A DNA stretch of 64,000 bases from an uncultured Clostridia bacterium (GTDB taxonomy: Bacteria; Bacillota; Clostridia; Oscillospirales; JAAYOS01): contig CANQDU010000002.1 of the NCBI GenBank assembly GCA_947593925.1, positions 1-64,000 on the forward strand, in the 5' to 3' direction. The notes below the pieces were generated by a model, which worked only from the letters and a program-made list of their open reading frames with translations, searched no databases and was not told the origin of the DNA. Each line of letters opens with the position of its first letter. Position 1 is the stretch's first letter. This document shows positions 12,255 through 27,695 of this stretch, in pieces. The position numbers and the translations under genes are program-made.

Positions 12255-12293
12255 CTCCGCCCCGCGGAAAACGCGGTAAACTAATATGACCCC

Positions 12294-12336
12294 GGGCGGC
12301 CGGAGGCGGACAGTTCCGGCTCCGGCCGCCATTTTC
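12294..12336 (+). terminator. Hairpin terminator after SLH gene
   Basis: GGCGGCCGGAG (12295-12305) pairs with CTCCGGCCGCC (12320-12330) and is followed by ATTTTC. It separates the two SLH genes. Confidence 0.6.
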
Positions 12337-12368
12337 GCAAAATACTCTCACTGAAAGGAGAACCAACC

Positions 12369-15300
12369 GTGAAGAAGATAGTATCGTTTTTGCTGACGCT
12401 CGTCCTGCTCTTGTCGCTCGTGCCGACACAGCTCGTCACGGTGGTGGAGGCAGCTAACATTACAAACCGCAAACTTACGATACTTAACGATAAAACCTCA
12501 AATATTGCCCCCGGTGTCACACTGAATACCGTAACGGCGCGCAAGCAGTATAACAAGCAGCAGCTCGTTTACTACTCGATGGAGATAGATCTTGACCCGA
12601 AAAATCAGGTTGAGATCTACGCCAACTATTTTAATAACGACATTGAGTCGGTTATGGGCGGAAAGTACGGCCTCCAGGTAGTTAAGGACCAGATGGACGC
12701 CGCCGCCAAGAACCACGAGGATGAGAAAAACTTCAATATCGTCGCCGGTATGAACGGAACGGGTTATGTTATGGCAACAGGCAACCCGCACGCCCACGTC
12801 CTCATCATGGAAGGCAAAGTGATCCAAGGCGCCGAAAATACGACCTACAAGAATTTCTTCGGCATCCGCAAGAACGGCGAGGCCATGATCGGCTGGGACG
12901 TTAACACATATAATCAAGTCATGGCCTCCGATAATCCCCTTGTGGAGGCCGTTGGCGGCTTCTCCGGCGTACTGATTGAGGATGGAAATATCAATCCGGA
13001 CTGCGACTGGAGCAAATCGGAAACGCCCGACTGCAACGCCCGCACGGCAATCGGCGTCTCTCAGGACGGCAAGAAGGTCGTCATGCTGGTGGTGGACGGC
13101 AAGCAGGCTCCTACCTCCGAGGGCTGCGATATGTACGAGCTCGCGGAGATTCTGCAAGATGCCGGGTGCTACAACGCCGTGAATATGGACGGCGGCGGCT
13201 CCACGACCATGGTGGCGCGTCCCGAGGGCAAGGAAAATTATGAAGTTATCAGCAGCCCATGCGACGGCGCACCCCGCGCCGTGGCAAGCTCCTTCTATGT
13301 CGTATCGCGCGTTCCGCCCTCCGATGAGGCCCACCACGCGGCAGTGGAGGCCGACGCGGATTACATCACGCCCAACGGCACCGTGAACATCACGACCTCG
13401 GCTCTGAACTACGCCGGTACGGCGGTGGATATGCCCGAAGACGCCCAGTGGGTCGAGGCCGGCAAAGAACCGCTTGGAACGATAACGGGCAGTGCCGAGG
13501 ACGCGGTCTTTACCTCTAACGGGACCGTAGGAGACACGACCTTAGAGCTGAGATGCGAGAGCGGGCAAAAGCTTCTGGCCACTGTGCCGATTCATGTGGT
13601 TGTCCCCACAGAATTTAAATTCACCCAATCTACCTTTGCGCTCCCCTATGGCAAGACCATCGACATCACTTTCAATGCAACATATAAAGTCGATACCGTA
13701 GAGGGTATCGACATTACAAGAGATGTCAAGCTCCGCAAAGAAGATGTGTCAATGTCGATCTCCAGCGATGAGCTTGGCGAGCTTGTGGATTACACATTTA
13801 CAGCGGCCGGCGAGGGAGCCTCCAACACGACTGAGGGCATCGTCACGGCGAAGCTGATAGAAGAATTAGGCAGTAAAGAAATCACAGCGAAGCTGCTGAT
13901 CGGCAAGGAGACCGAGACAGTCATGGGCTTCGAGGAAGACGCAACGACTTTATCAGAGTTGTTTTATGCTGAGGCAGCTAGTGGCACGGTTCCACTAAAT
14001 GTTCCATTTGAAACTAAGATCGTAAACAGAGAAACAGGCAAGGTCCACGACGGCAATCAGGCGCTTGCCGTTACATTTGATTTCACTCATGTCAACTCCA
14101 GCTTTGAAGGCTCCGGATGGTTCTCAAATTTTGTCAAGTACAACGGTGAGAGACCTACAAGGAGTAATGTCACAGGCTATGGATTTTGGGTTTGGATACC
14201 GGATGAAGCTAAACAGGTGCAATTTAAGCCTGTCCTGAGAGTACCGGATGGAAGAAGCTTCAAAAATGTATTGGCTTCGGGAAACGATCCCTCGTTCGCA
14301 TCGGAATATGATGAAGGACATTGGTGTTATTTCGAAATCGACAAAGCCGTAATTGAACCATATGTCAACGGAGAAGTCAGTGTTCCCGGTTTGGGAGGTA
14401 CACCTTTTTATTTCTATTTCCAGGCTTCGAACGCCGCGATTAAGCCGGCTAACCTCAACAATAAGATAACGTTCTATATCGACACAGTACAGATGGACTA
14501 TTCCCCCATTACCCCGGACAGGGGAATGCCCAACATCATGTCGGTCAATGACGGCGCCACCGGCGGGGAGCTTCTTCGCGGAAACACATATACTTATACT
14601 TCCAACGACCCCGTGAACTTTACGGCTACGGTGGTGGATGACAATGGACTTAACGCCACGGGCATCCGGAAGGTGGAGGCCTTTGTGGACGGCGTGCCTG
14701 TCGATGTAACGTATGACCCCAACACCCATTTGGCGACCACCACGGCGACAAAGTTCGCCCCCGGCGCACATACCTTGAAATTCTACGCCTATGACGGCGC
14801 GGAGGGTACGCCCAACTGCACAAACGCCACAAGGCGGTTTGTGATCCCCGAGGATCAGAGCACCGTCACCGTAAAGATGACGGCAAAGGACGGTCCGGGG
14901 AACGTGGTCGGAGCGGATTCCAGAATTCCCATCGGCAGCATCGTCAATATCGGCTTTGAGACTACGGACATCTCCAAGATCGATGGCGTGTCCATGGATC
15001 TCGACCTCAATAACAACGGCACATGGTATCTTGAGAACGCCACCGTGAACCCGAAGTTCACCATGACGAGTAAGCTTGATCCTGTGGAGAATATCGCCAC
15101 GATCACGCTCACGCGCAACGCGGTGTACGAGGATACCGACAAGGCTATTGAGAATCCCAACGTCCTTGTTTCGATTCCGGTGAGGACATGGGAGATCGAG
15201 TCATCTTTCACCAGCAAATGGGACAGCAGCACACTTACTATTGAGGGGCTTTGGAGCAGTGGGACTTTTTGCCGTGTCCAGGTGGAAGTGGACGTGGATC

Positions 15301-18284
15301 GGGGAGAGATCACCTACGCGCCGGACTATGTTCCCGGCGTTCTGAACACCTTCGGCAGCGCGCACCTCGCAGTGGACACCGAGCTGTTCGGCAAATCGGC
15401 GGATGTTAAGAATGCCTACCCCAATAACACAAGGTGGCACGAGCACACGAATTTGAAAGACGTGCCGACCAGCGAAGCCACCTGCACCACGGACGGATAC
15501 GCGGGGCAGACATACTGCGAAGAGTGCCATTCTGTTGTCAACTGGGGCACAAAGACGCCCGCCACTGGGCACAGCTATGAAGTCAACGCTGAAACCGGCC
15601 TCATGCAGTGCACCGTGTGCGATGATCTGTATACCGGCGAGCTTGGCGGCATTACCTACGTGAACGGCAAAACCGTCGAAGGTTGGCAGGACGACAACAC
15701 CTACTATGTGAACGGCAAGCCGCTCGGCGAGGGTCTGCATGAGACCAACGACACCGTTGACGGCGAGACCGTCACGCGCATGCACAGGTTCGACGCGGAC
15801 GGCAAGTGCATAGACCGAAACATCGCCTACACCGGCTTCTACACCAAGGACGCTGCGGGCAACTGCACGGCGGTGGAGAACTTGCCTACGGACGCCGCGC
15901 AGCTCGATACGACAGCGTACTACTACGTCGAGGGCGGCCTGCCCTATGACGGCTGGCTGTACTTCTGGAAGGACGGCGGCAAGGCCGACCTCAACGAGAC
16001 AAAGCCGACGGAAACTATCCCGGACGGCGAGGAGGAGAAAGATAAGTCGTCCGGCGAAAAGACGGATGCTCCGACCGCCATGGCCGAGACGTCCGGCACG
16101 TCCGGCACGCCCGAGCGCGAGCCCGGCATGCCCGACCCAACGCAGCAGCAGAAGATTCTGGATATCAGGGCATACCATATCCACAAGGAAGACAGGCGCG
16201 TCTATCGCGTGGACATGGTGGACACCCGCAAGTGCGTGGTGAGCGGTTACATCGAGTACACCTGCACGGCGTGCAAGCAGCAAACAAAGAGCGAAAAGCT
16301 CTGGTGGGTCGGCCACGATTGGGACGAAAACCATGTTTGCAGACGTGAGGACTGCAAGCTCGTGGGCCGCGACATCGGCAAGGCGTCGCTGAACATCATG
16401 GGCGAGCGCTTCGACTACACCGGCGGATTGATCCGCGCGGCGGTGTACGTGTACGACAACAACAAGTCGCTCCTCGTCCGCAGCGACAAGAACGGCACGG
16501 ACGGCTACGTGTGGTACGAAAACAACCAAGATATCGGCGTCGCGACCGTCCACATCCGCGGTGAGGGCGACTACTACGGCGAGCTGACCGGCACGTTTGA
16601 GATCGTGCCGAAGAGCGTGAAGGAAGTCAGAAAGAGCGAGACGCATTGCGCCACCGCGGATGAGGTGACCGTCAACCTGGATTGGGACGAGAGCCCCGGC
16701 GCGACCTATTACGACGTGTTCCGCTACGACTACGTCGCAAAACAGTGGATAACCACGAAGGTCACGACGAACCACTTCAGCGAGGAGCTGCCGCTCGGGA
16801 CGGAGTACGGCTACGTTGTCGCCAGCCGCGCCGAGAAGGACGGCAAGACCTACCTCTGCGCGCTCTGGTCCGACTCGGTGTACGGCGTGATCGGGCACAG
16901 ATGGGGCGCGGAGCAGAGCAAAGTGGAGCCCGGCTGCGAGACCGAGGGCAGCTACACGCACGAGTGTACCGAGTGTCACTTTGTGGAGACCGTGACCGTC
17001 CCGGCGACGGGGCACAAGGTCGATAATTGGACGACGACGGTCGCGCCGACATATACGTCCTCCGGCAGCAGAACCGGGACGTGCTCCGTCTGCGGCGAGG
17101 AAGTGACCGAGACGCTGTCGCCGATACCGCCGGTCATCACCGGCACAGGCAACACGACTTCGCCGGACGCAAAGCAGGAGACCGTCGAGAACGAGGACGG
17201 CTCCACGACCACAACGACCACCAAGCCGGACGGCTCCACCACCGAGACCACGACTCAGACCGACGGCACGGTGACCGAGAAGAACACGGACAAGTCGGGC
17301 GTCGTGACCGAAACCACGACGAAGCCGGACAACACCGTGACCGAGAAGGTCACCCAGACCGACGGCAGCGCCACCGAGCGCACGACGACTCCGGACGGCG
17401 TTGTCGGCCAGAAGAGCACCGACTCGGAGGGCAAGGTCACGTCCGCCGAGGTCGTCATTCCTAAGGAAGCGGAGAAGCAGGACGTCGTGACCGCTCCGGT
17501 AGAAGTTCCGGCGGCAAAGACCGCAGAGGAAGCGCCGGAGATCAGCGTCCGCACCGAATCGACCGAGAGCAAGAAGGTCGAAATTCCCGTGACCGAGTTC
17601 GGACCCGGAACGGTCGCGGTCATCGTCCATGAGGACGGCACTGAGGAGGTCGTGCGCGACTGCACCATCGGTGAGAACGGCGTCGTTCTGAACGTCGAGG
17701 GCGACGTCACACTCAAAATAGTGGACAAGGCCGAGACGTTCGAGGACGTCGAGGACGCGAACCACTGGGCGTCGAACGCGGTTGAGTTCGTGGCGGCGCG
17801 TGAGCTGTTCAACGGAACCGCCGAAAATAAGTTCACGCCGAACGGAAGCATGACGCGCGGCATGATGGTGACGGTCCTGTACCGTCTCGCGTATGAGCCG
17901 GACGCGGTCGAGGAAGGCTTCGCGGACGTGAAGTCTGACGCATACTACTCGGATGCGGTAGCATGGGCTGCGGAGAACGGCGTCGTCAACGGCTACGCCG
18001 ACAACACTTTCGCGCCGGACGACAACGTGAGCCGCGAGCAGCTCGTGACGATCCTGCACCGCTACGCGCAGAAGAAGGGTTACGCGACGAACACAAGCGA
18101 AACGCTCGCGAACTTCGCGGACGCAAAGTCGGTGAGCAGCTGGGCGGCGGACGCGATGAGCTGGGCGGTAGAACTCGGGCTCGTGAACGGCACGGACTCG
18201 ACACACATCTCGCCCGCAAAGAGCGCCACCCGCGCCGAGGTCGCGACCATCCTCATGCGCTTCTGCGAGAAGGTCGTAAAGTAA
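12369..18284 (+). CDS. Secreted phosphodiester glycosidase (NAGPA-like) with C-terminal SLH domains
   Basis: A 1971-residue exported protein. GTG 12369 follows GAAAGGAG. A signal peptide (1-28) precedes a phosphodiester glycosidase/DUF2233 domain (about 60-315), recognised by RTAIGVSQDGKKVVMLVVDG and NMDGGGSTT (about 270-278). Related enzymes uncover N-acetylglucosamine 1-phosphodiesters, so a wall or capsule glycan substrate is plausible. Beta-sandwich regions follow, including a carbohydrate-binding-like part (about 520-720) and a cohesin-like part (about 850-970). Next come ribbon-like segments rich in CxxC pairs and ATGH motifs (about 1020-1090, 1300-1340, 1520-1590) and a Thr-rich linker (about 1600-1690). 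Three SLH domains (about 1790-1971) end the protein. Codon use becomes more uniform and GC-rich toward the C-terminus, suggesting domain assembly. The glycosidase call is firm; the substrate is not known. Confidence 0.85.
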   Translation: MKKIVSFLLTLVLLLSLVPTQLVTVVEAANITNRKLTILNDKTSNIAPGVTLNTVTARKQYNKQQLVYYSMEIDLDPKNQVEIYANYFNNDIESVMGGKYGLQVVKDQMDAAAKNHEDEKNFNIVAGMNGTGYVMATGNPHAHVLIMEGKVIQGAENTTYKNFFGIRKNGEAMIGWDVNTYNQVMASDNPLVEAVGGFSGVLIEDGNINPDCDWSKSETPDCNARTAIGVSQDGKKVVMLVVDGKQAPTSEGCDMYELAEILQDAGCYNAVNMDGGGSTTMVARPEGKENYEVISSPCDGAPRAVASSFYVVSRVPPSDEAHHAAVEADADYITPNGTVNITTSALNYAGTAVDMPEDAQWVEAGKEPLGTITGSAEDAVFTSNGTVGDTTLELRCESGQKLLATVPIHVVVPTEFKFTQSTFALPYGKTIDITFNATYKVDTVEGIDITRDVKLRKEDVSMSISSDELGELVDYTFTAAGEGASNTTEGIVTAKLIEELGSKEITAKLLIGKETETVMGFEEDATTLSELFYAEAASGTVPLNVPFETKIVNRETGKVHDGNQALAVTFDFTHVNSSFEGSGWFSNFVKYNGERPTRSNVTGYGFWVWIPDEAKQVQFKPVLRVPDGRSFKNVLASGNDPSFASEYDEGHWCYFEIDKAVIEPYVNGEVSVPGLGGTPFYFYFQASNAAIKPANLNNKITFYIDTVQMDYSPITPDRGMPNIMSVNDGATGGELLRGNTYTYTSNDPVNFTATVVDDNGLNATGIRKVEAFVDGVPVDVTYDPNTHLATTTATKFAPGAHTLKFYAYDGAEGTPNCTNATRRFVIPEDQSTVTVKMTAKDGPGNVVGADSRIPIGSIVNIGFETTDISKIDGVSMDLDLNNNGTWYLENATVNPKFTMTSKLDPVENIATITLTRNAVYEDTDKAIENPNVLVSIPVRTWEIESSFTSKWDSSTLTIEGLWSSGTFCRVQVEVDVDRGEITYAPDYVPGVLNTFGSAHLAVDTELFGKSADVKNAYPNNTRWHEHTNLKDVPTSEATCTTDGYAGQTYCEECHSVVNWGTKTPATGHSYEVNAETGLMQCTVCDDLYTGELGGITYVNGKTVEGWQDDNTYYVNGKPLGEGLHETNDTVDGETVTRMHRFDADGKCIDRNIAYTGFYTKDAAGNCTAVENLPTDAAQLDTTAYYYVEGGLPYDGWLYFWKDGGKADLNETKPTETIPDGEEEKDKSSGEKTDAPTAMAETSGTSGTPEREPGMPDPTQQQKILDIRAYHIHKEDRRVYRVDMVDTRKCVVSGYIEYTCTACKQQTKSEKLWWVGHDWDENHVCRREDCKLVGRDIGKASLNIMGERFDYTGGLIRAAVYVYDNNKSLLVRSDKNGTDGYVWYENNQDIGVATVHIRGEGDYYGELTGTFEIVPKSVKEVRKSETHCATADEVTVNLDWDESPGATYYDVFRYDYVAKQWITTKVTTNHFSEELPLGTEYGYVVASRAEKDGKTYLCALWSDSVYGVIGHRWGAEQSKVEPGCETEGSYTHECTECHFVETVTVPATGHKVDNWTTTVAPTYTSSGSRTGTCSVCGEEVTETLSPIPPVITGTGNTTSPDAKQETVENEDGSTTTTTTKPDGSTTETTTQTDGTVTEKNTDKSGVVTETTTKPDNTVTEKVTQTDGSATERTTTPDGVVGQKSTDSEGKVTSAEVVIPKEAEKQDVVTAPVEVPAAKTAEEAPEISVRTESTESKKVEIPVTEFGPGTVAVIVHEDGTEEVVRDCTIGENGVVLNVEGDVTLKIVDKAETFEDVEDANHWASNAVEFVAARELFNGTAENKFTPNGSMTRGMMVTVLYRLAYEPDAVEEGFADVKSDAYYSDAVAWAAENGVVNGYADNTFAPDDNVSREQLVTILHRYAQKKGYATNTSETLANFADAKSVSSWAADAMSWAVELGLVNGTDSTHISPAKSATRAEVATILMRFCEKVVK

Positions 18285-18322
18285 GCGAGCGGGAGCGCAA
18301 GCGAACAGCGCAAAACAGCACG

Positions 18323-18352
18323 AAAGGGAGGGGCTGACGCCCCTCCCTTTTT
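18323..18352 (+). terminator. Rho-independent terminator
   Basis: AAAGGGAGGGGC (18323-18334), TGAC loop, GCCCCTCCCTTTTT. Ends the SLH/glycosidase transcript just before the CRISPR locus. Confidence 0.85.
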
Positions 18353-18442
18353 GCCGGCCGGAAAAATCGGCAGGGAATAAAAATATATTTTTGAAAGTCC
18401 GTTTTTTGGGACTTATTCCAAGTTCCGGAGGAGGTATTAAAA

Positions 18443-18808
18443 GTGGAACTCAACGAAGAAAGCAGTCATCTTCCTTATGTGTTGGGACGGTTGTTTGCCG
18501 TGCTTGAACGGGTACAATCAGCCGCAAATCCCGGTATCAACGCCACAATAAAGGACAAGTATTTCAACAGTGCGTGCGCTACACCGGCAACGATATTTCC
18601 ACTGCTGACAAAGCTTTCACAGAGTCACCTGAGAAAGCTGGACGGCGGCCTGAAAACCTATTTTGAAAAAATGATTGGCGACCTGGAGGGCCGCATACAT
18701 GTGACTCTGCCCGCCCGCATGTCGCTCGCTGACCAGGGAACTTTCCAGATCGGATATTATCATCAGGTCCAGAAATTCTATGAGAAGAAGGACAAAGGAG
18801 GAAATTAA
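18443..18808 (+). CDS. cas11c: Free-standing Cas11c-like small subunit (C-terminal part of Cas8c/Csd1)
   Basis: 121 residues corresponding to the C-terminus of type I-C Cas8c (Csd1), with the conserved PYVLGRLFAVLERVQ, NPGINATIKDKYFNSACATP, FPLLTKLSQSHL and GYYHQVQKFYEKK. Cas8c proteins are normally 550-650 residues and the rest is missing. In studied I-C systems this C-terminal part is made separately from an internal start as the small subunit Cas11c (about 14 kDa). Here GGAGGAGG (near 18427-18434) precedes GTG 18443 by about 8 bases, so it can be made alone. cas7 begins 1 bp after its stop. Upstream is only the terminator of the SLH gene, with no cas3 or cas5. Either a deletion stopped at the internal start, or selection kept this piece. 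The family match is confident; retained function is inference. Confidence 0.82.
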   Translation: MELNEESSHLPYVLGRLFAVLERVQSAANPGINATIKDKYFNSACATPATIFPLLTKLSQSHLRKLDGGLKTYFEKMIGDLEGRIHVTLPARMSLADQGTFQIGYYHQVQKFYEKKDKGGN

Positions 18809-18809
18809 G

Positions 18810-19730
18810 ATGTCTGAACCTATCAAGAACCGCTATGAATTTGTTGTCCTGTTTGAAGTGGAGAACGGCAACCCGAACGGAGACCCGGACGCGGGCAACA
18901 TGCCCCGCGTCGATCCGGAGACCGGCTGCGGACTTGTCACCGACGTCTGCCTCAAACGGAAGATCCGCAACTTCGTGGAGACAGCCAAGGAGGGCGAGCC
19001 CGGCTATGGGATCTACATCAAGGACGGCACACCCCTGAACACCAGCGACAACGCCGGGTTTTCCTCCGTGGGGATAGACGGAGCCGCGTCTATGAAGCCG
19101 GAGGATCTCAAAAAGGCTGTCAAAAAGAGGGGAGAGGAGGGTGTCGATGTAGACAACCGTGTGAAGGAGTTCATGTGCGGGAGCTTCTTTGACATCCGCA
19201 CCTTCGGCGCGGTGATGACTACGATGGTCAAGGGAAATCTCAACTGCGGCCAGATTCGGGGGCCGGTCCAGCTCGGATTTGCCAGAAGCATCGACCCTAT
19301 CGTGCCCCAGGAAGTCACCATTACCCGCGTCGCCATCACGACCGAGGCGGACGCGGAGAAAAAAGGCACCGAGATGGGCCGCAAGTACATCGTCCCGTAC
19401 GCGCTCTACCGCTGCGAGGGGTATGTCTCCGCGAACCTCGCAAAGAAGGTCACCGGCTTCTCCGAGGAAGACCTTGAGCTTCTGTGGCAGGCGATTCTCA
19501 ACATGTTCGAGCACGACCGCTCCGCCGCGCGCGGGAAGATGGCCGTCCGCGAGCTCATCGTCTTCAAACATGACTCCGAGCTCGGCTGCGCTCCGGCGTG
19601 GAAGCTCTTTGAGACCGTCTCGGTCACGCGGAAGGACGGCGTGATGAGCCCGCGCGCCTACGGCGACTACATCGTTTCCGTGGACGAGGCGGCGCTCCCC
19701 GCCGGCGTCACCTGCACGCGCATGGGGTGA
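18810..19730 (+). CDS. cas7c: Type I-C Cas7 (Csd2) backbone protein
   Basis: 306 residues, the repeated backbone subunit that coats crRNA in type I-C Cascade. Family signatures include FEVENGNPNGDPDAGNMPRVD, DVCLKRKIRNF, the DVDNRVKEFMCGSFFDIRTFGAV stretch and GPVQLGFARSIDP. ATG 18810 (MSEPIKNRYEF) has AAAGGAGG just upstream; an in-frame start at 18780 would overlap cas11c and lacks a site. Length is normal and the frame is intact. It follows cas11c by one base and precedes cas4 by two, so they form one transcript. Without Cas5 and the large subunit it cannot build a complete interference complex by known rules. Confidence 0.95.
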   Translation: MSEPIKNRYEFVVLFEVENGNPNGDPDAGNMPRVDPETGCGLVTDVCLKRKIRNFVETAKEGEPGYGIYIKDGTPLNTSDNAGFSSVGIDGAASMKPEDLKKAVKKRGEEGVDVDNRVKEFMCGSFFDIRTFGAVMTTMVKGNLNCGQIRGPVQLGFARSIDPIVPQEVTITRVAITTEADAEKKGTEMGRKYIVPYALYRCEGYVSANLAKKVTGFSEEDLELLWQAILNMFEHDRSAARGKMAVRELIVFKHDSELGCAPAWKLFETVSVTRKDGVMSPRAYGDYIVSVDEAALPAGVTCTRMG

Positions 19731-19732
19731 CC

Positions 19733-20401
19733 GTGCTTCCCGAGGATGAGTATCTTGCCCTGTCGGGCATACAGCACTTTGCGTTCTGCCGCCGGCAGTG
19801 GGCGCTCATCCACATCGAGCAGCAGTGAGCCGAGAATTTGCGAACGGTGGAAGGGGATCTGCTCCACCGGCGCGCCCACGACGAGACCTTTACCGAAAGC
19901 CGCGGCGATACATTGATCGTCCGCGGCCTTCGGGTGGTCTCTCACCGTTTGAAAATCCAAGGGGTGTGCGACGTGGTGGAGTTTCACAGGGACCCGCACG
20001 GAGTGACGCTTGCGGGCCGGGAAGGGAAGTGGAGCCCGTACCCCGTGGAATATAAGCGGGGCAAGCCCAAGCCGTTTGATGCGGACGAGCTCCAGCTCTG
20101 CGCGCAGGCTCTCTGCCTTGAGGAGATGCTGCTCTGCTCCGTCCCGGAAGGCAGTCTGTTTTACGGCGAACCCCGACGGCGGACAAAAGTGGCGCTGGAT
20201 GCGGCGCTCAGGGAGCGGGTGAAGGATATGCTTTCCGAGATGCACAGCCTCTACGCGAGGGGGCGCACGCCAAAGGTAAGACCCGGCAAAGGCTGCGCCG
20301 CATGCTCGCTAAAGGAGCTGTGTCTTCCCCGATTACAGAAGAACCCGTCTACGGACGCCTATATCCGCGCCCATCTGCCGGGAGAGGATGAGTCGCCGTG
20401 A
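19733..20401 (+). pseudogene. cas4: Cas4 with premature TGA at codon 32
   Basis: Cas4 is a RecB-like nuclease with an Fe-S cluster that trims prespacers. GTG 19733 opens VLPEDEYLALSGIQHF and the first cluster cysteine in FCRRQW. An in-frame TGA at 19826-19828 then replaces what is a tryptophan codon in relatives (IEQQ-W-AENLRTVEGD). The frame continues intact for 190 codons: RecB motifs GVCDVVEF and PVEYKRGKPK, then the last three cysteines in GCAACSLKELC. A single TGG-to-TGA change explains it. TGA is an ordinary stop elsewhere in the window, for example at the end of cas7. A restart at TTG 19838 would lose the first cluster cysteine. A sequencing error should be excluded. It overlaps cas1 by GTGA. 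Confidence 0.88.
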
Positions 20402-21429
20402 GAAAATTTCTGAATACTCTGTTTGTTCTCAGCGAGGACAGTTATCTGGCTCTCGAAGGGGAGACGGTCATAGTGCTCGCGGAGGAAGAAAAGAGGGGGC
20501 AGTTTCCTCTCCACACGTTGGAAAACATCATCTGCTTTTCCTATAAGGGAGCAAGCCCCGCTCTGATGGGGAAATGTGCCCGGGAGGGGATAAACCTCTG
20601 CTTCTTCACACCGAGGGGACGCTTTCTTGCACGAGTGAGCGGTGAAAATAACGGCAATGTTCTGCTGCGCCGAACGCAGTATCGAATGGCGGACGATGAC
20701 GCCCAAAGCTGCCGCGCGGCTAAGAATTTCATCTTCGGCAAGGTTTACAACAGCCGGTGGAGCATTGAGCGCACCAGGCGCGACCATGCTCTGCGGGTGG
20801 ACGACGAAGGACTCGGCCGTGCTTCCGCACTGCTGGCGGAAAGTCTGCCGCACCTGCTTGAAGCGGCTTCGCCGGATGAACTTCGCGGACTTGAAGGGGA
20901 GGCAGCCGCAGTCTACTTTGGGGCTTTTGATTCGCTCATACTGAATCAGAGGGAGACTTTCGGCTTTACCGGACGTTCCCGTCGGCCGCCTATGGATCCG
21001 ACGAATGCGCTGCTGTCATTTGCATATTCCCTGCTTTCCAATGCCTGCGCGGGGGCGCTGGAGGGCGTGGGGCTGGACGCATATGTGGGATTTCTCCACC
21101 GGGACAGGCCGGGGCGTGCCTCTCTCGCGCTGGATCTGATGGAAGAGCTTCGGCCGCTGTTTGCGGACAGGTTCGTGTTGACTCTCATCAATAACCGAAC
21201 GATTCGCTCGGAGCATTTTGAGCGTCAGCCCGGCGGTGCGGTGCTGCTGAACGAAGAAGGCCGAAGGTTGTTTCTCACCTCGTGGCAGAAGCGGTTGGCG
21301 GAACCGATAACCCATCCGTATCTGAAGGAAAAGCTGGCATGGGGTCTGGTGCCCTATGTTCAGGCGCTGCTGCTTGCCCGTTATCTCAGGGGCGACATCG
21401 ACGGCTACCCGCCGTTCTTGTGGAAGTGA
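20398..21429 (+). CDS. cas1c: Type I-C Cas1 integrase
   Basis: 343 residues, the integrase that inserts new spacers together with Cas2. Residues used by the family are present: glutamate in LEGEAAAVYF (about 168), histidine in GFLHRDRPGRASLALDL (about 232), and the acidic residues of LDLMEELRPLF just after. Starts at GTG 20398, overlapping the cas4 stop as GTGA. Length and N-terminus (MRKFLNTLFV) are typical for I-C. The frame is intact, so the adaptation enzyme itself is not broken, unlike the neighbouring cas4. Confidence 0.95.
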   Translation: MRKFLNTLFVLSEDSYLALEGETVIVLAEEEKRGQFPLHTLENIICFSYKGASPALMGKCAREGINLCFFTPRGRFLARVSGENNGNVLLRRTQYRMADDDAQSCRAAKNFIFGKVYNSRWSIERTRRDHALRVDDEGLGRASALLAESLPHLLEAASPDELRGLEGEAAAVYFGAFDSLILNQRETFGFTGRSRRPPMDPTNALLSFAYSLLSNACAGALEGVGLDAYVGFLHRDRPGRASLALDLMEELRPLFADRFVLTLINNRTIRSEHFERQPGGAVLLNEEGRRLFLTSWQKRLAEPITHPYLKEKLAWGLVPYVQALLLARYLRGDIDGYPPFLWK

Positions 21430-21438
21430 GGCGGTTTT

Positions 21439-21729
21439 GTGTTGATACTTATTACATACGATGTCAACACGGAGGACGCCGAGGGGAAAAGACGGCTGCG
21501 CCGGGTGGCAAAGCAGTGCGTCAATTACGGTCAGCGTGTGCAGAACTCGGTGTTTGAATGTCTGGTGGACCCGTCGCAGTACAAGCTGCTTCAGGCAAAG
21601 CTGCTGGAGATCATTGACCCGGAGAAGGACAGTCTGAGGTTCTATCAGCTCGGGAACAAATACCAAAGCAAGATTGAACACTTCGGCGTCAAGGCGTCAT
21701 ACGAGCCGGAGGGAGTCCTTCTCATATAG
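21439..21729 (+). CDS. cas2: Type I-C Cas2
   Basis: 96 residues with the ferredoxin-like Cas2 start (MLILITYDVNTED), RRLRRVAKQCVNYGQRVQNSVFEC and the C-terminal YQLGNKYQSKIEHFG. It is the structural partner of Cas1 in the spacer-integration complex. It starts at GTG 21439, 10 bp after cas1, and is followed by the array leader. Confidence 0.95.
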   Translation: MLILITYDVNTEDAEGKRRLRRVAKQCVNYGQRVQNSVFECLVDPSQYKLLQAKLLEIIDPEKDSLRFYQLGNKYQSKIEHFGVKASYEPEGVLLI

Positions 21730-21901: not shown

Positions 21902-22195
21902 GTCGCGCCCCGCACGGGGCGCATGGGTTGAAATCAAACCCATTCGCTCCTCTCTCCGTCTCGTCCAGGTCGCGCCCCGCACGGGGCGCGTGGGTTGAAA
22001 TCGCTTTGCTTCCTCCGATTTTGCCCGCGCTTGCTGTCGCGCCCCGCACGGGGCGCGTGGGTTGAAATTGGGGCATCGTGGAGGACGTCTCCGCGCCGCG
22101 GAGGTCGCGCCCCGCACGGGGCGCGTGGGTTGAAATATCTCGAGTATGCGGCGCGCAAGGTCGGCGGTCTCGGGTCGCGCCCCGCAAGGGGCGCG
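21902..22195 (+). CRISPR. Type I-C CRISPR array, 4 spacers
   Basis: Four 33-bp repeats start at 21902, 21969, 22036 and 22104 and end in GTGGGTTGAAAT. They have the strong CGCCCCGCACGGGGCG stem typical of type I-C. A fifth, degenerate repeat starts at 22174 and loses its 3' third. Spacers are 34, 34, 35 and 37 bp. The first repeat differs by one base (CATGGG for CGTGGG). Spacer targets cannot be told from the sequence alone. Confidence 0.97.
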
Positions 22196-22272: not shown

Positions 22273-23382
22273 TCACACTATCTCCCGCAGCGCCGACGTC
22301 AGCGCATCGACGTCCTCGTCGGTGTTTGTCCACGAGAAGGAGATCCGCACGGCGCTCTTTATCAGCTTCGGGTCGATGTGCATCGCGGTGAGGACGTGGC
22401 TCTCGCGGCCCTTCGCGCAGGCGGAGCCGCCGGAGACGAACACTCCCCGGTTCTCGAGAAGCCGTATCAGCACCTCGGACGGGTAACGCGGAGCTGCCGC
22501 TGTCACAACAGCCTCGCCGGAGGCGAGGACGGTCACGCCGGGCATCTGCCCGAGCGCCGCGAGCGTCTTCTCGCGCAGGGCGGCGATATGCGCCGCGTGC
22601 TCCTCGACCCCTTCCACCGCCTCCTCCGCCGCGACGCCGAAGCCGACTATCGCCGGGACCGGCTCGGTGCCGGAGCGCAGACCGCGCTCCTGCCCGCCGC
22701 CGTATATCAGCGGAGTGAGGTTTATCCCGTCCCTGATATACAGCGCGCCGGCGCCCTTCGGCCCGTGCAGCTTGTGGGCGGTGACGCTCACGAGGTCGGC
22801 GCCGAGGCGCCTCGGCGTGAAGCGCAGCTTCCCGAACGCCTGCACCGCATCGACGTGGACGAGCGCGTTCGGGTTCTTCCGCCGCAGGAGCGCCGCCGCT
22901 TCCTCGACCGGCAGACGCGCGCCGGTCTCGTTGCAGACGAGCATCATCGAGAGTAGGGCGGTGTCGGGACGTATCAGACTTTCAAGCTCGGCAAGTGAAA
23001 TGCCCCCGTCCCGCGTGGGGCGGAGGTAGTTGACCTCCCAGCCGCTCTGCTCGAGCTTTTTCAGACACTCAAGGACGGACGGGTGCTCGAAAGCGGTGGA
23101 GATGATGTGCCGCCCGTACCGGCGCTGTATCTCGGCGCCGCGAAGGAGCGCGAGGTTGTTTGACTCGGTGCCGCCGGAGGTGAAAAGTATCTCGCCGGGC
23201 TCACAGCCCATCAGAGCGGCGACGTGCTCCCGCGCGGTGCGGACCGCCGCCTCCGCCTCTATGCCGAGGCGGTGAACGGACGACGGATTTGCAAACGTCA
23301 CGGTCATGGCGTCCGCCGCAGCGGCCGCCGCCGCGGGGGAGACCCGCGTCGTTGCGGCGTTATCCAGATAGTGAAGCTCCAT
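22273..23382 (-). CDS. nifS: Cysteine desulfurase (NifS/IscS family)
   Basis: 369 residues, a PLP enzyme releasing sulfur from cysteine for Fe-S clusters or tRNA thiolation. The N-terminus MELHYLDNAATTRVSP is classic. HPSVLECL, VDAVQAFGK, the PLP lysine in SVTAHKLHGPKG and the persulfide cysteine in SGGSACAKG are present. ATG at 23382 follows AGAAGGGA; an in-frame upstream extension to 23625 overlaps the MATE gene and reads unlike the family. No iscU follows in the window and it is the last gene of the minus-strand block, so the sulfur acceptor is unknown. A tRNA-thiolation role, as for IscS paired with MnmA or ThiI, is possible. Confidence 0.93.
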   Translation of the reverse strand: MELHYLDNAATTRVSPAAAAAAADAMTVTFANPSSVHRLGIEAEAAVRTAREHVAALMGCEPGEILFTSGGTESNNLALLRGAEIQRRYGRHIISTAFEHPSVLECLKKLEQSGWEVNYLRPTRDGGISLAELESLIRPDTALLSMMLVCNETGARLPVEEAAALLRRKNPNALVHVDAVQAFGKLRFTPRRLGADLVSVTAHKLHGPKGAGALYIRDGINLTPLIYGGGQERGLRSGTEPVPAIVGFGVAAEEAVEGVEEHAAHIAALREKTLAALGQMPGVTVLASGEAVVTAAAPRYPSEVLIRLLENRGVFVSGGSACAKGRESHVLTAMHIDPKLIKSAVRISFSWTNTDEDVDALTSALREIV

Positions 23383-23491
23383 TTCAGTTCCCTTCTTCCG
23401 GGTTGGTATCGCATATGATACAGCCGAACCTACGCAATAGCATACGCCCGAAGCCCGGAAACAATACCGATTTTCTGCCGGTTTTACCGCG

Positions 23492-24898
23492 TTATGCGAC
23501 CGATTCGCGCGTGACGTTCCGTATCCACTTCCGACTCTTGAACCGCCACAGCCCGAGTATGGTCTTGACCGGCTCCTCGCTGAGCACGAACAGGTAGACC
23601 CAGAGGATGTCGAGATGCAGGACAAGGCCGCCTATCGCCGCGAGCGGCAGGGAAATGAGCCACATCGCGCCGACGTCCACGAGCAGCCCGAAGCTCACGT
23701 CTCCGCCGCCGCGCAGTATGCCGACGACGAGCGTGGAGTTGAACGATCGGAAGAACATCGTCGCAAAGCCCTGACACAGGAGCATTATCGTCGCCGCGCG
23801 CATCGCGCCCGGTTCCAGCTTGAATGCGGGGAAGAGGAAGGGCCGCACGACGGTGAACAGAGCCACGATTATCAGCAGTCCGCTGACAAAGCCCACGATG
23901 AAGCTCATCACCGTAAACGTCATGCCGAGCGACTGCACTTCTTCCTTGGAGTCTCCCGCGCCGACGGACTTTCCGACGAGCACCGCCGTCGCGTTCGAGA
24001 CGGCAAACACCGCGATGGTGACTATCTGCTCGACGTTTCGCGAGAGGGAATAAGCCGCCGTGATGTCGCTCGAGGCCGCCATGTGTCCGTATATGACGGC
24101 GTAGAGCGAGGTGCCGAGGCCCCACAGCGTCTCGTTCAGCATGACGGGGGAGGAGTAGCGGAGAAAGTCCTTGAGTATCGTCATGCCCGGGCGGATCATC
24201 TTGGAGGGCATGAGCTTCAATACCTGCTTCGGGCTGTGCTGAGTGACGATGATGTAGCCGAGCACCGTCACAGTCTCGACCATGCGGGCGGCGAGCGTTC
24301 CGAGCGCCGCGCCCTCGACGCCCATGGCGGGCAGGCCGAGCTTGCCGAAGATGAATATGTAGTTGAAGATAACGTTCGAGCCCATGCCGAGCATGACGAC
24401 AACCGTGCCGAGCTTCGGACTCTCACAGCTCCGCCGCGCGCCGATGTAGAGCGAGGTGAAGGCGTTGAGAACGTAGGAGTAGGCGACGACCTTGCCGTAG
24501 CGCGCCGCAACGTCTAAAAGGGCGGGATTGTTTGTCGTGAGACCCATGATGGCGCGGGGAAAGAGGAACACCGCCGTCGCGAATACGAAGCTCAGGCCGA
24601 CGGCGAACATGATGCTGAGACCTATCACGCGGTTTATCGTCGCGACGTCCCGCTTGCCCCAGTACTGGCTCATCAGCACCGCACCGCCGCTCTGAAGCCC
24701 GAACACAAAGAGCATGGCGACAAAGAACGGGGTGTTCGCAAGACTCAGCCCGCCGAGCTCGTTCTGACCGAGCGTGCCCACCATGAAGGTGTCCACAAGG
24801 CCGAGCGACGAGCTTATGAGGTTCTGGAGCATTATCGGAAGTGCCAGCGCAAAGAAGCTCCTGTAAAACTCCTTCGGCCGGCGGAGGCTCTTAAACAT
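23492..24898 (-). CDS. MATE family multidrug efflux transporter
   Basis: 468 residues, about 12 membrane segments. It exports drugs or metabolites using a cation gradient. The family start FALALPIMLQNLISSSLGLVDTFMVG, the ELGGLSLAN stretch and GLQSGGAVLMSQYWGK are clear. GAAAGGAT lies ahead of ATG 24898. It runs toward the cysteine desulfurase with 109 bp between. Its start is 84 bp from the degenerate end of the second CRISPR array. Confidence 0.93.
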   Translation of the reverse strand: MFKSLRRPKEFYRSFFALALPIMLQNLISSSLGLVDTFMVGTLGQNELGGLSLANTPFFVAMLFVFGLQSGGAVLMSQYWGKRDVATINRVIGLSIMFAVGLSFVFATAVFLFPRAIMGLTTNNPALLDVAARYGKVVAYSYVLNAFTSLYIGARRSCESPKLGTVVVMLGMGSNVIFNYIFIFGKLGLPAMGVEGAALGTLAARMVETVTVLGYIIVTQHSPKQVLKLMPSKMIRPGMTILKDFLRYSSPVMLNETLWGLGTSLYAVIYGHMAASSDITAAYSLSRNVEQIVTIAVFAVSNATAVLVGKSVGAGDSKEEVQSLGMTFTVMSFIVGFVSGLLIIVALFTVVRPFLFPAFKLEPGAMRAATIMLLCQGFATMFFRSFNSTLVVGILRGGGDVSFGLLVDVGAMWLISLPLAAIGGLVLHLDILWVYLFVLSEEPVKTILGLWRFKSRKWIRNVTRESVA

Positions 24899-24982
24899 AC
24901 GAAAACATTATCCTTTCAAATCAAGACTGCGCCGCCCCGCGCGCGGAGCGCGCCGCGGGACGGCAGACGTGCGCCTTTACGG

Positions 24983-25136
24983 ATGTTGACCCGCGAGGGC
25001 TCGACAGGGCCGGCAGACCGCAGACGAATATCTTTCCGGATTTCAACCCACGCGCCCGTGAGGGGCGCGATCCCGAGCCGCTCGGTGTCCGATAGGCCGG
25101 TGATATTTCAACCCACGCGCCCGCGCGGGTCGCGGC
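24983..25136 (-). CRISPR. Orphan type I-C-like mini array, 2 spacers, leaderless
   Basis: Read on the minus strand, two 32-bp repeats (25105-25136 and 25040-25071) share GGGCGCGTGGGTTGAAAT with the main array but lack one G in the stem and differ at the 5' end. A third, degenerate repeat (24983-25005) begins GTCGAGCCC and ends GGGTCAACAT. Spacers are 33 bp (25072-25104) and 34 bp (25006-25039), the right size for type I-C. The array begins 4 bp after the stop codon of the gene upstream, leaving no room for a leader. Confidence 0.8.
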
Positions 25137-25140
25137 GGCG

Positions 25141-26055
25141 TCAGTGCCGTTTCAGGTGGTTCATCATTATCCGCGTGGAGTGCAGAGTCTCGCGGAGGAT
25201 GAACGTCTCGGTGTACACCTGCCGCGACTGCTTGTAGACGCCCTCCTGCTCAAGCTCATGGTCTATCTGACGGGAGAGCTCGTCCGGGTCGCCGTAGCGG
25301 GAGGCGAGCAGGTAGTTGAAGTGCAGGCGCGGGAAGATGAACGCGAGCAGCGCGTAGAGGAAGAACAGCGGGAAAAGTATCGAGAATATCACGAGCATGA
25401 TGAGGTCGTTGCCCTCGCTCTCGACCGGGATGTTGCGGAAGTCGAGCATATAGTCCGCGATCTCGGTCCCGGCGGAGTCGGTGAGGCCGAGATCCCAGAA
25501 GACGTAGGCCGGGAGCTTCGTGAACACGGCGCAGTCGGCAAGGCGACCCGCCTCCGGCGTCCAGCCGTAGGGAATGAGCGAAGCGAACCGCTGTCCTCCG
25601 ACGGTGACGACCGCGAGCTGCTGCTCTATCTCGCCCTGACGCTCGAACGCCGCCTCGTCCCCCCGGAAGAAGCGGAGGAGCGAATCACTGTCCGAGACGT
25701 AGTAGCCGATGTCGTAGAGCTCCACCTTCTCTACGGAGACGATGAAGCGGTAGTAGTCGCGGCTGTCACGGTAGACGTTGTCGATAAGCAGCGACTCGGG
25801 AACGGTGTCTCCCGCGCCGTAGATCCAGTGCTCGGTCTGCGGCTCGACGGTCACCGGCTTCACCGCCGCGAGCAGCTCGGCGGTGTCGAGCTCGACGCCG
25901 TTTGTCGTGGTGTTCTTGACATACATCGCAGCCGAGCGGACGTAAAGGACGTATATCACCATGAAAAGCGCCGCCCAGAAGAGCGCGAGCGCCGCATTTT
26001 TCCTTGTCCTGCTTCTGAGGTAGCCCTTTTCGGGCTGCTTGAAAAGTTTCAGCAT
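25141..26055 (-). CDS. Two-pass membrane protein of unknown function
   Basis: 304 residues. A membrane segment (about 22-45, ALALFWAALFMVIYVLYV), an extracellular domain of about 165 residues without recognised motifs (with ERQGEIEQQLAVVTVGGQRFASL), then a second segment (about 220-245, LIMLVIFSILFPLFFLYALLAFIF) and a charged cytoplasmic tail. It lies 9 bp downstream of comM on the same strand, so they are likely co-transcribed. I do not recognise the family. Readthrough from this gene would transcribe the mini CRISPR array in its sense direction. Confidence 0.8.
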   Translation of the reverse strand: MLKLFKQPEKGYLRSRTRKNAALALFWAALFMVIYVLYVRSAAMYVKNTTTNGVELDTAELLAAVKPVTVEPQTEHWIYGAGDTVPESLLIDNVYRDSRDYYRFIVSVEKVELYDIGYYVSDSDSLLRFFRGDEAAFERQGEIEQQLAVVTVGGQRFASLIPYGWTPEAGRLADCAVFTKLPAYVFWDLGLTDSAGTEIADYMLDFRNIPVESEGNDLIMLVIFSILFPLFFLYALLAFIFPRLHFNYLLASRYGDPDELSRQIDHELEQEGVYKQSRQVYTETFILRETLHSTRIMMNHLKRH

Positions 26056-26064
26056 ATCTGCCTC

Positions 26065-27588
26065 CTACTGGACGTTTTCCTCGCCCCGGTAGCGGAGCGC
26101 TTCGGCTATATGTACCGCGCGGACGCCCTCGCTGTGGTCGAGGTCGGCCACCGTGCGGGCGAGGCGCAGTATGCGGTCGTACGACCGCGCCGTGAGCCCG
26201 AGACGGTTGAACGCGCTCTTTATCAGCGCGTCTCCCTCCGCGTCCGGGCGGCAATACTCACCGACGAGCGGCGCGGGTATCTGCGCGTTGCACTCTATGC
26301 CGTGCGCGCGCATACGCTCGCGCGCTATGCCGCGCGCATCCTCGACGCGGGCGCGGATGTCGCTCGAACGCTCGCCGTCGCCCGACCGCGCGGAAAGCTC
26401 GTCGTAGGCGAGGGCGGGGACTTCGATGCGCATATCTATCCTGTCGAGTATCGGCCCGGAGAGGCGCGCCTTGTACTTACGTATCTGCTCCTCGGTGCAT
26501 ACGCACTTCCGCACGGGATGCCCGTACCAACCGCAGCGGCAGGGGTTCATCGCGCAGACGAGCATGAAGCGCGCGGGGTAGGTGACGGTACCCGCGACGC
26601 GCGCTATCGTCACCTTGCCGTCCTCGAGGGGCTGGCGGAGGCTTTCAAGCGCGCGGCGGTCGAACTCGGGGAACTCGTCCATAAAGAGGACGCCGTTGTG
26701 CGCAAGCGAGAACTCGCCCGGCCTCGGAAGCGCGGCGGAATGTCCGCCGCCTATCAGCGCTGCCGCCGAGACCGTGTGGTGCGGCGAGCGGAAGGGACGC
26801 TCGGAGAGTATCGGCCGGTCGTCCGAGAGAAGTCCCGCTACGGAGTGTATCTTCGTAGACTCGAACAGCTCCTCGCGGCTCATCGCGGGGAGAATCGACG
26901 GCAGCCGCCGCGCGAGCATGCTCTTTCCCGAGCCGGGAGGGCCGTTCAGGAGAATGTTGTGCCCTCCGGCGGCGGCGACCTCGAGGGCGCGCTTCGTCGC
27001 GGCCTGTCCCTTGACGTCAGCAAAGTCGAGCGCGTCGTCGCGCACGGCGTACGCCTCGCCGGGCTCCGCGCGGGAGATGTGCCGCACACCGCGCATGTGG
27101 TCGATTATCTCGCTCGCGTGGCGCGCGCCGTAGACGGCGATGCCGTCGGCATAAGCCGCCTCGGAAGCGTTCTCCGAGGGGAGGAATATCGCCTTGAAGC
27201 CGGCGGCTTTTGCCGCGAGCGCCATCGGCAGAGCGCCGTTCATCGGACGGAGCTCGCCCGTGAGCGACAGCTCGCCGACAAACGCCGCGTCCTCCTGAAC
27301 GCGGATGTCCTCGCCCGCCGCGAGCAGGCCGAGGAATATCGGCAGGTCGTATATCGCGCCCTCCTTCTTCGTGTCGGCGGGCGCGAGGTTGACGGTTATC
27401 CGCCCCGACGGGAAGCCGAAGCCGCAGTTCTTCATCGCCGCGCGGACGCGCTCGCGGCTCTCGCGGACCGCCGCGTCCGGCAGACCGACGACGTCGAAGG
27501 AGGGGAGCCCTCCCGATATGAATGTCTCGACCGCGACGGGGTATGCGTCAATGCCGAACAATCCGAGTGAGTTAAGACTTGCGACCAA
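26065..27588 (-). CDS. comM: ComM/YifB Mg-chelatase-like AAA+ ATPase
   Basis: 507 residues, a hexameric helicase-like ATPase that in other bacteria promotes branch migration of incoming DNA during natural transformation. An N-terminal Lon-protease-like domain (SLGLFGIDAYPVAVE, GLPSFDVVGLPDAAVRESRERV) is followed by the AAA+ core with Walker A GPPGSGKSMLARRLP, Walker B GVLFMDEFPEF and the cysteine motif CAMNPCRCGWYGHP. TTG 27588 is chosen because GGAGG lies eight bases ahead and the protein then begins like its relatives. dprA, another transformation gene, is at 56376, so competence-related DNA handling is plausible. Confidence 0.93.
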   Translation of the reverse strand: MVASLNSLGLFGIDAYPVAVETFISGGLPSFDVVGLPDAAVRESRERVRAAMKNCGFGFPSGRITVNLAPADTKKEGAIYDLPIFLGLLAAGEDIRVQEDAAFVGELSLTGELRPMNGALPMALAAKAAGFKAIFLPSENASEAAYADGIAVYGARHASEIIDHMRGVRHISRAEPGEAYAVRDDALDFADVKGQAATKRALEVAAAGGHNILLNGPPGSGKSMLARRLPSILPAMSREELFESTKIHSVAGLLSDDRPILSERPFRSPHHTVSAAALIGGGHSAALPRPGEFSLAHNGVLFMDEFPEFDRRALESLRQPLEDGKVTIARVAGTVTYPARFMLVCAMNPCRCGWYGHPVRKCVCTEEQIRKYKARLSGPILDRIDMRIEVPALAYDELSARSGDGERSSDIRARVEDARGIARERMRAHGIECNAQIPAPLVGEYCRPDAEGDALIKSAFNRLGLTARSYDRILRLARTVADLDHSEGVRAVHIAEALRYRGEENVQ

Positions 27589-27695
27589 GCGCTTCGCCTC
27601 CAGACGGTTGAAAATTTATATACACAACAATTATACCGCGATTCCGCGAGAATGGCAATAGCGCGGAGCGGACGATTTTACTTTACGCGAAGGAC

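Follow-up and report, generated by a model that had tools for sequence, protein, structure and literature searches.

An old, leaderless type I-C mini-array within an operon of four related gut bacteria, with a conserved terminal spacer that matches a gene of conjugative elements

In the stretch of 64,000 nt analysed here (the window, from an uncultured Clostridia bacterium), a short cluster of repeats lies on the minus strand, separated from the plus-strand main type I-C array by a nifS-like gene and a MATE transporter gene (Table 1). An earlier note on this DNA had read here three I-C-like repeats enclosing spacers of 33 and 34 bp. Alignment to the main repeat, for which a perfect score is 66, recovered two full units, R1 and R2, with scores of 45 and 52, and no other sequence of the window, the main array apart, scored 32 or more; of the third unit, R3, only the 5' half is kept (local score 14), which is the usual appearance of the trailer end of an array. 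The spacer lengths were as described (33 and about 34 nt), with a repeat register of 65 and 66 nt, and the repeats have the hairpin, GTGGGTTGAAAT-type 3' handle and 65-70 nt spacing of type I-C. The 1.87-Mb genome as a whole contains five copies of a 13-nt handle, CGTGGGTTGAAAT, of which three belong to the main array and two to the mini-array; its reversed control is absent, and chance repeats are ruled out by these handle counts together with the alignment scores. Folded as RNA, the whole intergenic region is not more stable than its shuffles (z -0.65).

Table 1. Features of the CRISPR-cas locus and the neighbouring operon (window positions)
Feature	Position	Strand	Remarks
cas8c, 3' remnant	18416-18790	+	adjoins deletion
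cas7	18780-19730	+	
cas4	19838-20401	+	
cas1	20398-21429	+	
cas2	21439-21729	+	
Main type I-C array	21903-22195	+	5 repeats (last truncated), 4 spacers; after cas1-cas2
Class-V aminotransferase gene (cysteine desulfurase, NifS-like)	22273-23625	-	last gene of inferred operon
MATE transporter gene	23492-24898	-	downstream of mini-array
Degenerate terminal repeat R3	24981-25005 (25005 start approximate)	-	only 5' half recognisable
Terminal spacer	25006-25039 (25006 end approximate)	-	about 34 nt; nt 1-28 (25039-25012) conserved in four species
Repeat R2	25040-25071	-	32 nt, ATCGCGCCCCTCACGGGCGCGTGGGTTGAAAT; stem 7/7 pairs
Spacer 1	25072-25104	-	33 nt
Repeat R1	25105-25136	-	32 nt, GCCGCGACCCGCGCGGGCGCGTGGGTTGAAAT
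Membrane-protein gene (mem)	25141-26055	-	upstream of mini-array; 94-99% identical in three array-bearing sisters
comM-like gene (Mg_chelatase/ChlI)	26065-27588	-	first gene of inferred operon
Sigma-70-like promoter, TTGCCA-17-TATAAT	27630-27658	-	upstream of comM; 11/12 consensus

The note had further held that these repeats are one base shorter in the stem than those of the main array and differ from them in the same way as each other, pointing to a separate origin rather than a recent copy. The missing stem base is indeed common to R1 and R2, but beyond it their substitutions relative to the main repeat differ between the two. Among relatives, a sister species (G001) has a 32-nt repeat of the same kind (GTCGCGCCCCGCGCGGGCGCGTGGGTTGAAAT) in its main array, at the trailer end, so the short stem is no sign of foreign origin; the mini-array repeats are, to judge from the likeness of main-array trailer-end repeats, decayed versions of the local I-C repeat, and neither a separate origin nor a foreign second I-C system is supported. 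The other half of the claim stood, in that, of the four other genus genomes compared, three (G001, G003 and G004) have an array at the same place as the window's genome (G000), which rules out a recent copy of the main array; comparison of the sequences establishes vertical inheritance of the array from the common ancestor of the four species.

The carriers are four related gut bacteria belonging to four species, and a more distant genome of the same genus (G002) is without the array; all compared genomes are draft assemblies, apparently metagenome-assembled. There are four full repeats in G001, three in G003 and two in G004, each followed by a degenerate last repeat. The leader-side spacers differ in every one of the four species, and spacer 1 of the window array is not common to the three sisters. 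Across the four species the terminal spacer, CCGGAAAGATATTCGTCTGCGGTCTGCC, is unchanged at all but one of its first 28 positions (27/28), in the shared form CCGGAAAGATATTCGTCTGC[G/T]GTCTGCC, the window's own copy being one site off the four-species consensus.

The comM, membrane-protein, MATE and nifS genes share one direction, the membrane protein having no match in Pfam or NCBIfam. In the array-free G002 the gap between mem and MATE is 36 nt, and the same mem-MATE gene order is found in G006 and G007, so the array lies inside an apparently older operon. An AT-rich leader with a promoter is absent, as had been noted: coding sequence extends to 4 nt before R1, which starts 4 nt past the TGA (25143-25141) of the membrane-protein gene, and there is no promoter-like site. 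On the operon strand between 24850 and 27700, no promoter-like site was found besides the one upstream of comM, which is kept in G001 and G003. The suggestion that crRNA would come from readthrough of comM/membrane-protein transcription is accordingly the most plausible route and a likely one, because the only consensus-like promoter is upstream of comM and is conserved.

Searches for the source of the spacers gave a clear result for the terminal one. Among 84,980 genomes, 16 records contain an exact copy of its first 20 nt, where about 0.5 would be expected by chance. Three of these records are the sister species' own arrays, and a fourth, L063, has the sequence in a spacer of an unrelated array with 17 copies, from Ca. 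Mediterraneibacter colneyensis. Another ten records match antisense to very large ORFs that read ADEYLSG and then NVR, DVR or NIR, and two fall in other proteins with the same heptapeptide. The L063 array (L063:3852-3920) is I-C-like and independent, and its spacer falls on the ADEYLSG site with an offset of 12 nt. The consensus of the four species agrees with L059 at 33/33 positions, as befits a spacer derived from a mobile element, and with L119 and L121 at 31/33, all three reading GWQTADEYLSGNVR. The large target ORF of L055 contains Eco57I adenine-methylase and SNF2 domains, and related genes in G042 and G102 neighbour ArdC-N, YodL, LPD16, TraG and topoisomerase genes, a type of neighbourhood described for the DarB-like polyvalent proteins of Tn1549-like elements (PMC5512222). 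By its large methylase and SNF2 ATPase protein encoded beside conjugation genes, the sequence matched by the terminal spacer is identified as a DarB-like methylase-helicase ('polyvalent protein') gene of conjugative elements. Near matches lie in Tn1549-like conjugative elements, and weaker ones on rhizobial and Roseomonas plasmids, within helicase/methylase genes, as well as in one phage gene that carries the name DarB-like. The spacer could have been ordinary intergenic sequence conserved between species, but it is conserved as a match to conjugative elements. No DarB-like domain was found in ten genomes of the family, and neither the terminal spacer nor its TTC-PAM form has an exact match among viral contigs.

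TTC is the canonical, common I-C PAM, and at the corresponding position of the terminal-spacer matches it is present in one clear DarB-like target only, which has more mismatches; the exact target has TTT there and most near targets have TTG. TTT and TTN PAMs have been catalogued for some I-C systems (PMC8482600). The main arrays of G001 (L045:7230-7270) and G004 (L048, about 10200) carry, close to their trailer ends, a second spacer against the DarB-like gene (motif NAYKIIE), compatible with either one inherited spacer or two captures; several of its targets have TTC where the PAM would lie. Among viral contigs, the sole match to part of this spacer, in L174, is without the 5' part. For spacer 1, the search proposed in the note yielded only weak 18-mer matches to 17 viral contigs, most of them in one portal family. 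One frame of spacer 1 (25072-25104) reads ITGLSD, a motif known from phage portal proteins; as a candidate portal spacer it matches poorly beyond the 18-mers, with 7-11 mismatches in total, and the bases in the PAM position are GAG-like, which does not fit. At the thresholds used, targets on phages or plasmids were not found for the other mini-array and main-array spacers, and those tried against viral contigs gave no exact match.

The machinery that would use such spacers is unevenly retained. In the window's genome a clean deletion of about 4.6 kb (window 18281-18790) has taken out cas3, cas5c and the 5' portion of cas8c, the deleted stretch being equivalent to G004 C56 1311-5877 with a jump in the alignment at about window 18415, and what remains is cas7-cas4-cas1-cas2 and the five-repeat array. 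Neither cas3 nor cas5c was found anywhere in this genome (95% complete), in which cas7 is the only intact member of the I-C effector set. Just upstream of the cas remnant, a 1999-aa open frame (window 12285-18281) has weak similarity to NEAT/leucine-rich-repeat surface proteins. Because cas3, cas5c and most of cas8c are deleted, the mini-array of the window's genome is probably a relic, silent as immunity, and mature I-C crRNA is unlikely there. G004 is the sole carrier with an intact set (cas3, cas5c, cas8c, cas7, cas4, cas1 and cas2). In G001, cas3 has a frameshift, possibly an assembly error, located at L184 near 4130 (G001:C5, about 20130) despite an array of about 80 spacers. From G003, cas3, cas5c and cas7 are absent, and the place of the cas locus beside nifS (L046:1-1100) appears, from translation by eye, to hold a type I restriction-modification-like sequence. 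It is possible that defence systems were exchanged at that one site in G003 while the mini-array 2.5 kb away was kept.

The explanation that best fits this locus, and that is considered probable, is that of an old, leaderless and vertically inherited I-C memory against conjugative elements, carried by an operon. The mini-array would have entered the mem-MATE gap of the comM-mem-MATE-nifS operon in the common ancestor of the four species and been inherited vertically since then; its transcript would arise by readthrough starting at the comM promoter and be cleaved by Cas5c at the repeat hairpins, and the resulting crRNA would bear an 11-nt GTTGAAAT-type handle. The terminal crRNA would then guide I-C Cascade to the codon-constrained ADEYLSG motif in the DarB-like gene of Tn1549-like elements. 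The remaining spacers would have been turned over or lost differently in each species, and the terminal spacer, through selection for immunity, would have persisted thanks to a widespread target that changes slowly. The second spacer on the same gene in the main arrays of G001 and G004 and the independent spacer on the same site in L063 favour this explanation; against it, two of the four carriers (G000 and G003) are without I-C effector genes, the cas3 of G001 is frameshifted, and the bases in the PAM position of the exact and most near targets depart from the canonical TTC.

The main rival, which appears rather unlikely, is that the array is a neutral fossil, functionless since its formation, and that the terminal spacer is a shared ancestral sequence little changed by chance. 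The missing leader, the deletion or absence of effector genes in G000 and G003, the decaying repeats of G003 (each of its leader-side repeats has one broken stem pair) and the restriction of the comparison to four genomes with divergence mostly on one branch are all consistent with this. The distribution of changes argues against it, however. In the four-species alignment, 11 of the 32 ungapped columns of the last full repeat and 14 of the 27 columns of the degenerate terminal repeat are variable, as are three of the last five ungapped spacer columns, compared with one of spacer positions 1-28. For this 28-nt spacer segment, whose boundary was picked after viewing the alignment, 1/28 variable columns against 25/59 in the flanking repeats gives a Fisher p of 1e-4, and a single change or none in 28 has a binomial p of 2e-4 given the 33% of four-fold degenerate sites of mem and comM that vary (140/428). 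As 75 of these 140 variable sites are private to G001, and because most divergence lies on the G001 branch and the short branches say little, the conservation signal is mainly about the G001 lineage; the unchanged spacers of G000 and G003 do not contradict past selection, because both genomes are on short branches. The stem of the repeat that precedes the terminal spacer and would form its 5' handle also speaks against a fossil, since its 7/7 pairs are preserved in all four species, with paired changes from G-C to A-U in G001 and from C-G to U-A in G004, and with two G-U pairs in G003.

It is improbable that the conserved stretch instead controls the MATE gene as a DNA or RNA element (an operator, promoter or processing site), its conjugative-element match reflecting origin only: it does sit upstream of MATE, the 5' region of which is itself conserved, but conservation ends sharply at a repeat-spacer boundary and is not seen again until close to the start of MATE, and no promoter-like site is present there. 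A CreTA-type regulatory crRNA, with the conserved spacer guiding Cascade to a host promoter by partial pairing, is very improbable, since although one conserved spacer in degenerate repeats beside host genes is the pattern expected of it, the 28-mer has no further match, with as many as three mismatches allowed, in the five genus genomes (on which ground self-targeting of these genomes is also rejected), and a full-length foreign target exists; the PAM-and-seed matches listed in the host are candidate sites of partial pairing.

For the preferred explanation of an inherited memory, a more far-reaching version can be entertained tentatively, in which purifying selection has kept the spacer while at least four species diverged, in an array transcribed together with host genes, because conjugative elements could not readily alter the motif it targets, and in which the hairpins may cut the operon mRNA and thereby couple immunity to MATE expression. 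CRISPR memories are usually held to be short-lived because targets mutate to escape, whereas in the present case the repeats have drifted around one spacer that has hardly changed, and its target is a stretch, conserved at the codon level, of a gene that occurs in some phages as well as on the conjugative elements of several phyla. If the explanation is true, some memories would last as long as the target cannot change, the DarB-like gene would be a recurrent weak spot, with spacers against it in three separate arrays or array types, and the locus would offer a naturally repeated case for tracking spacer decay after the loss of cas genes.

Compared with known type I-C CRISPR-Cas systems (Cas7/Csd2, Cas5c, Cas8c), the locus is alike in repeat sequence, spacer length (33-36) and the Cas7/Csd2 match, but the mini-array has no leader and the effector genes are deleted in the window's genome. 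Arrays without cas genes are known within species, such as the orphan CRISPR2 of Enterococcus faecalis (PMC4580645) and the 'anti-CRISPR' CRISPR3 of E. coli (PMC2886076), and the present array resembles both in its fixed chromosomal place without adjacent cas genes, in the occasional absence of cas genes and in its conserved terminal spacer, and resembles CRISPR2 in its degenerate terminal repeat. Those arrays differ in being of type II or Ypest (I-F) and are not reported as embedded in an operon, and the spacers of CRISPR3 target cas genes whereas the present one targets a gene of conjugative elements. In the open-access literature no report was found of an operon-embedded spacer that several species have kept in common, though this does not prove that there is none. 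The retention of trailer-end spacers while leader-end ones turn over has been explained by persistent targets (PMC3330103, Weinberger et al. 2012; PMC2886076, Touchon and Rocha 2010), and the present array is similar in that the oldest spacer is kept and the leader end turns over. However, those observations were made within populations or strains of one species, whereas here the conservation extends across four species, in an array set apart from the main one and with repeats that diverge around the spacer.
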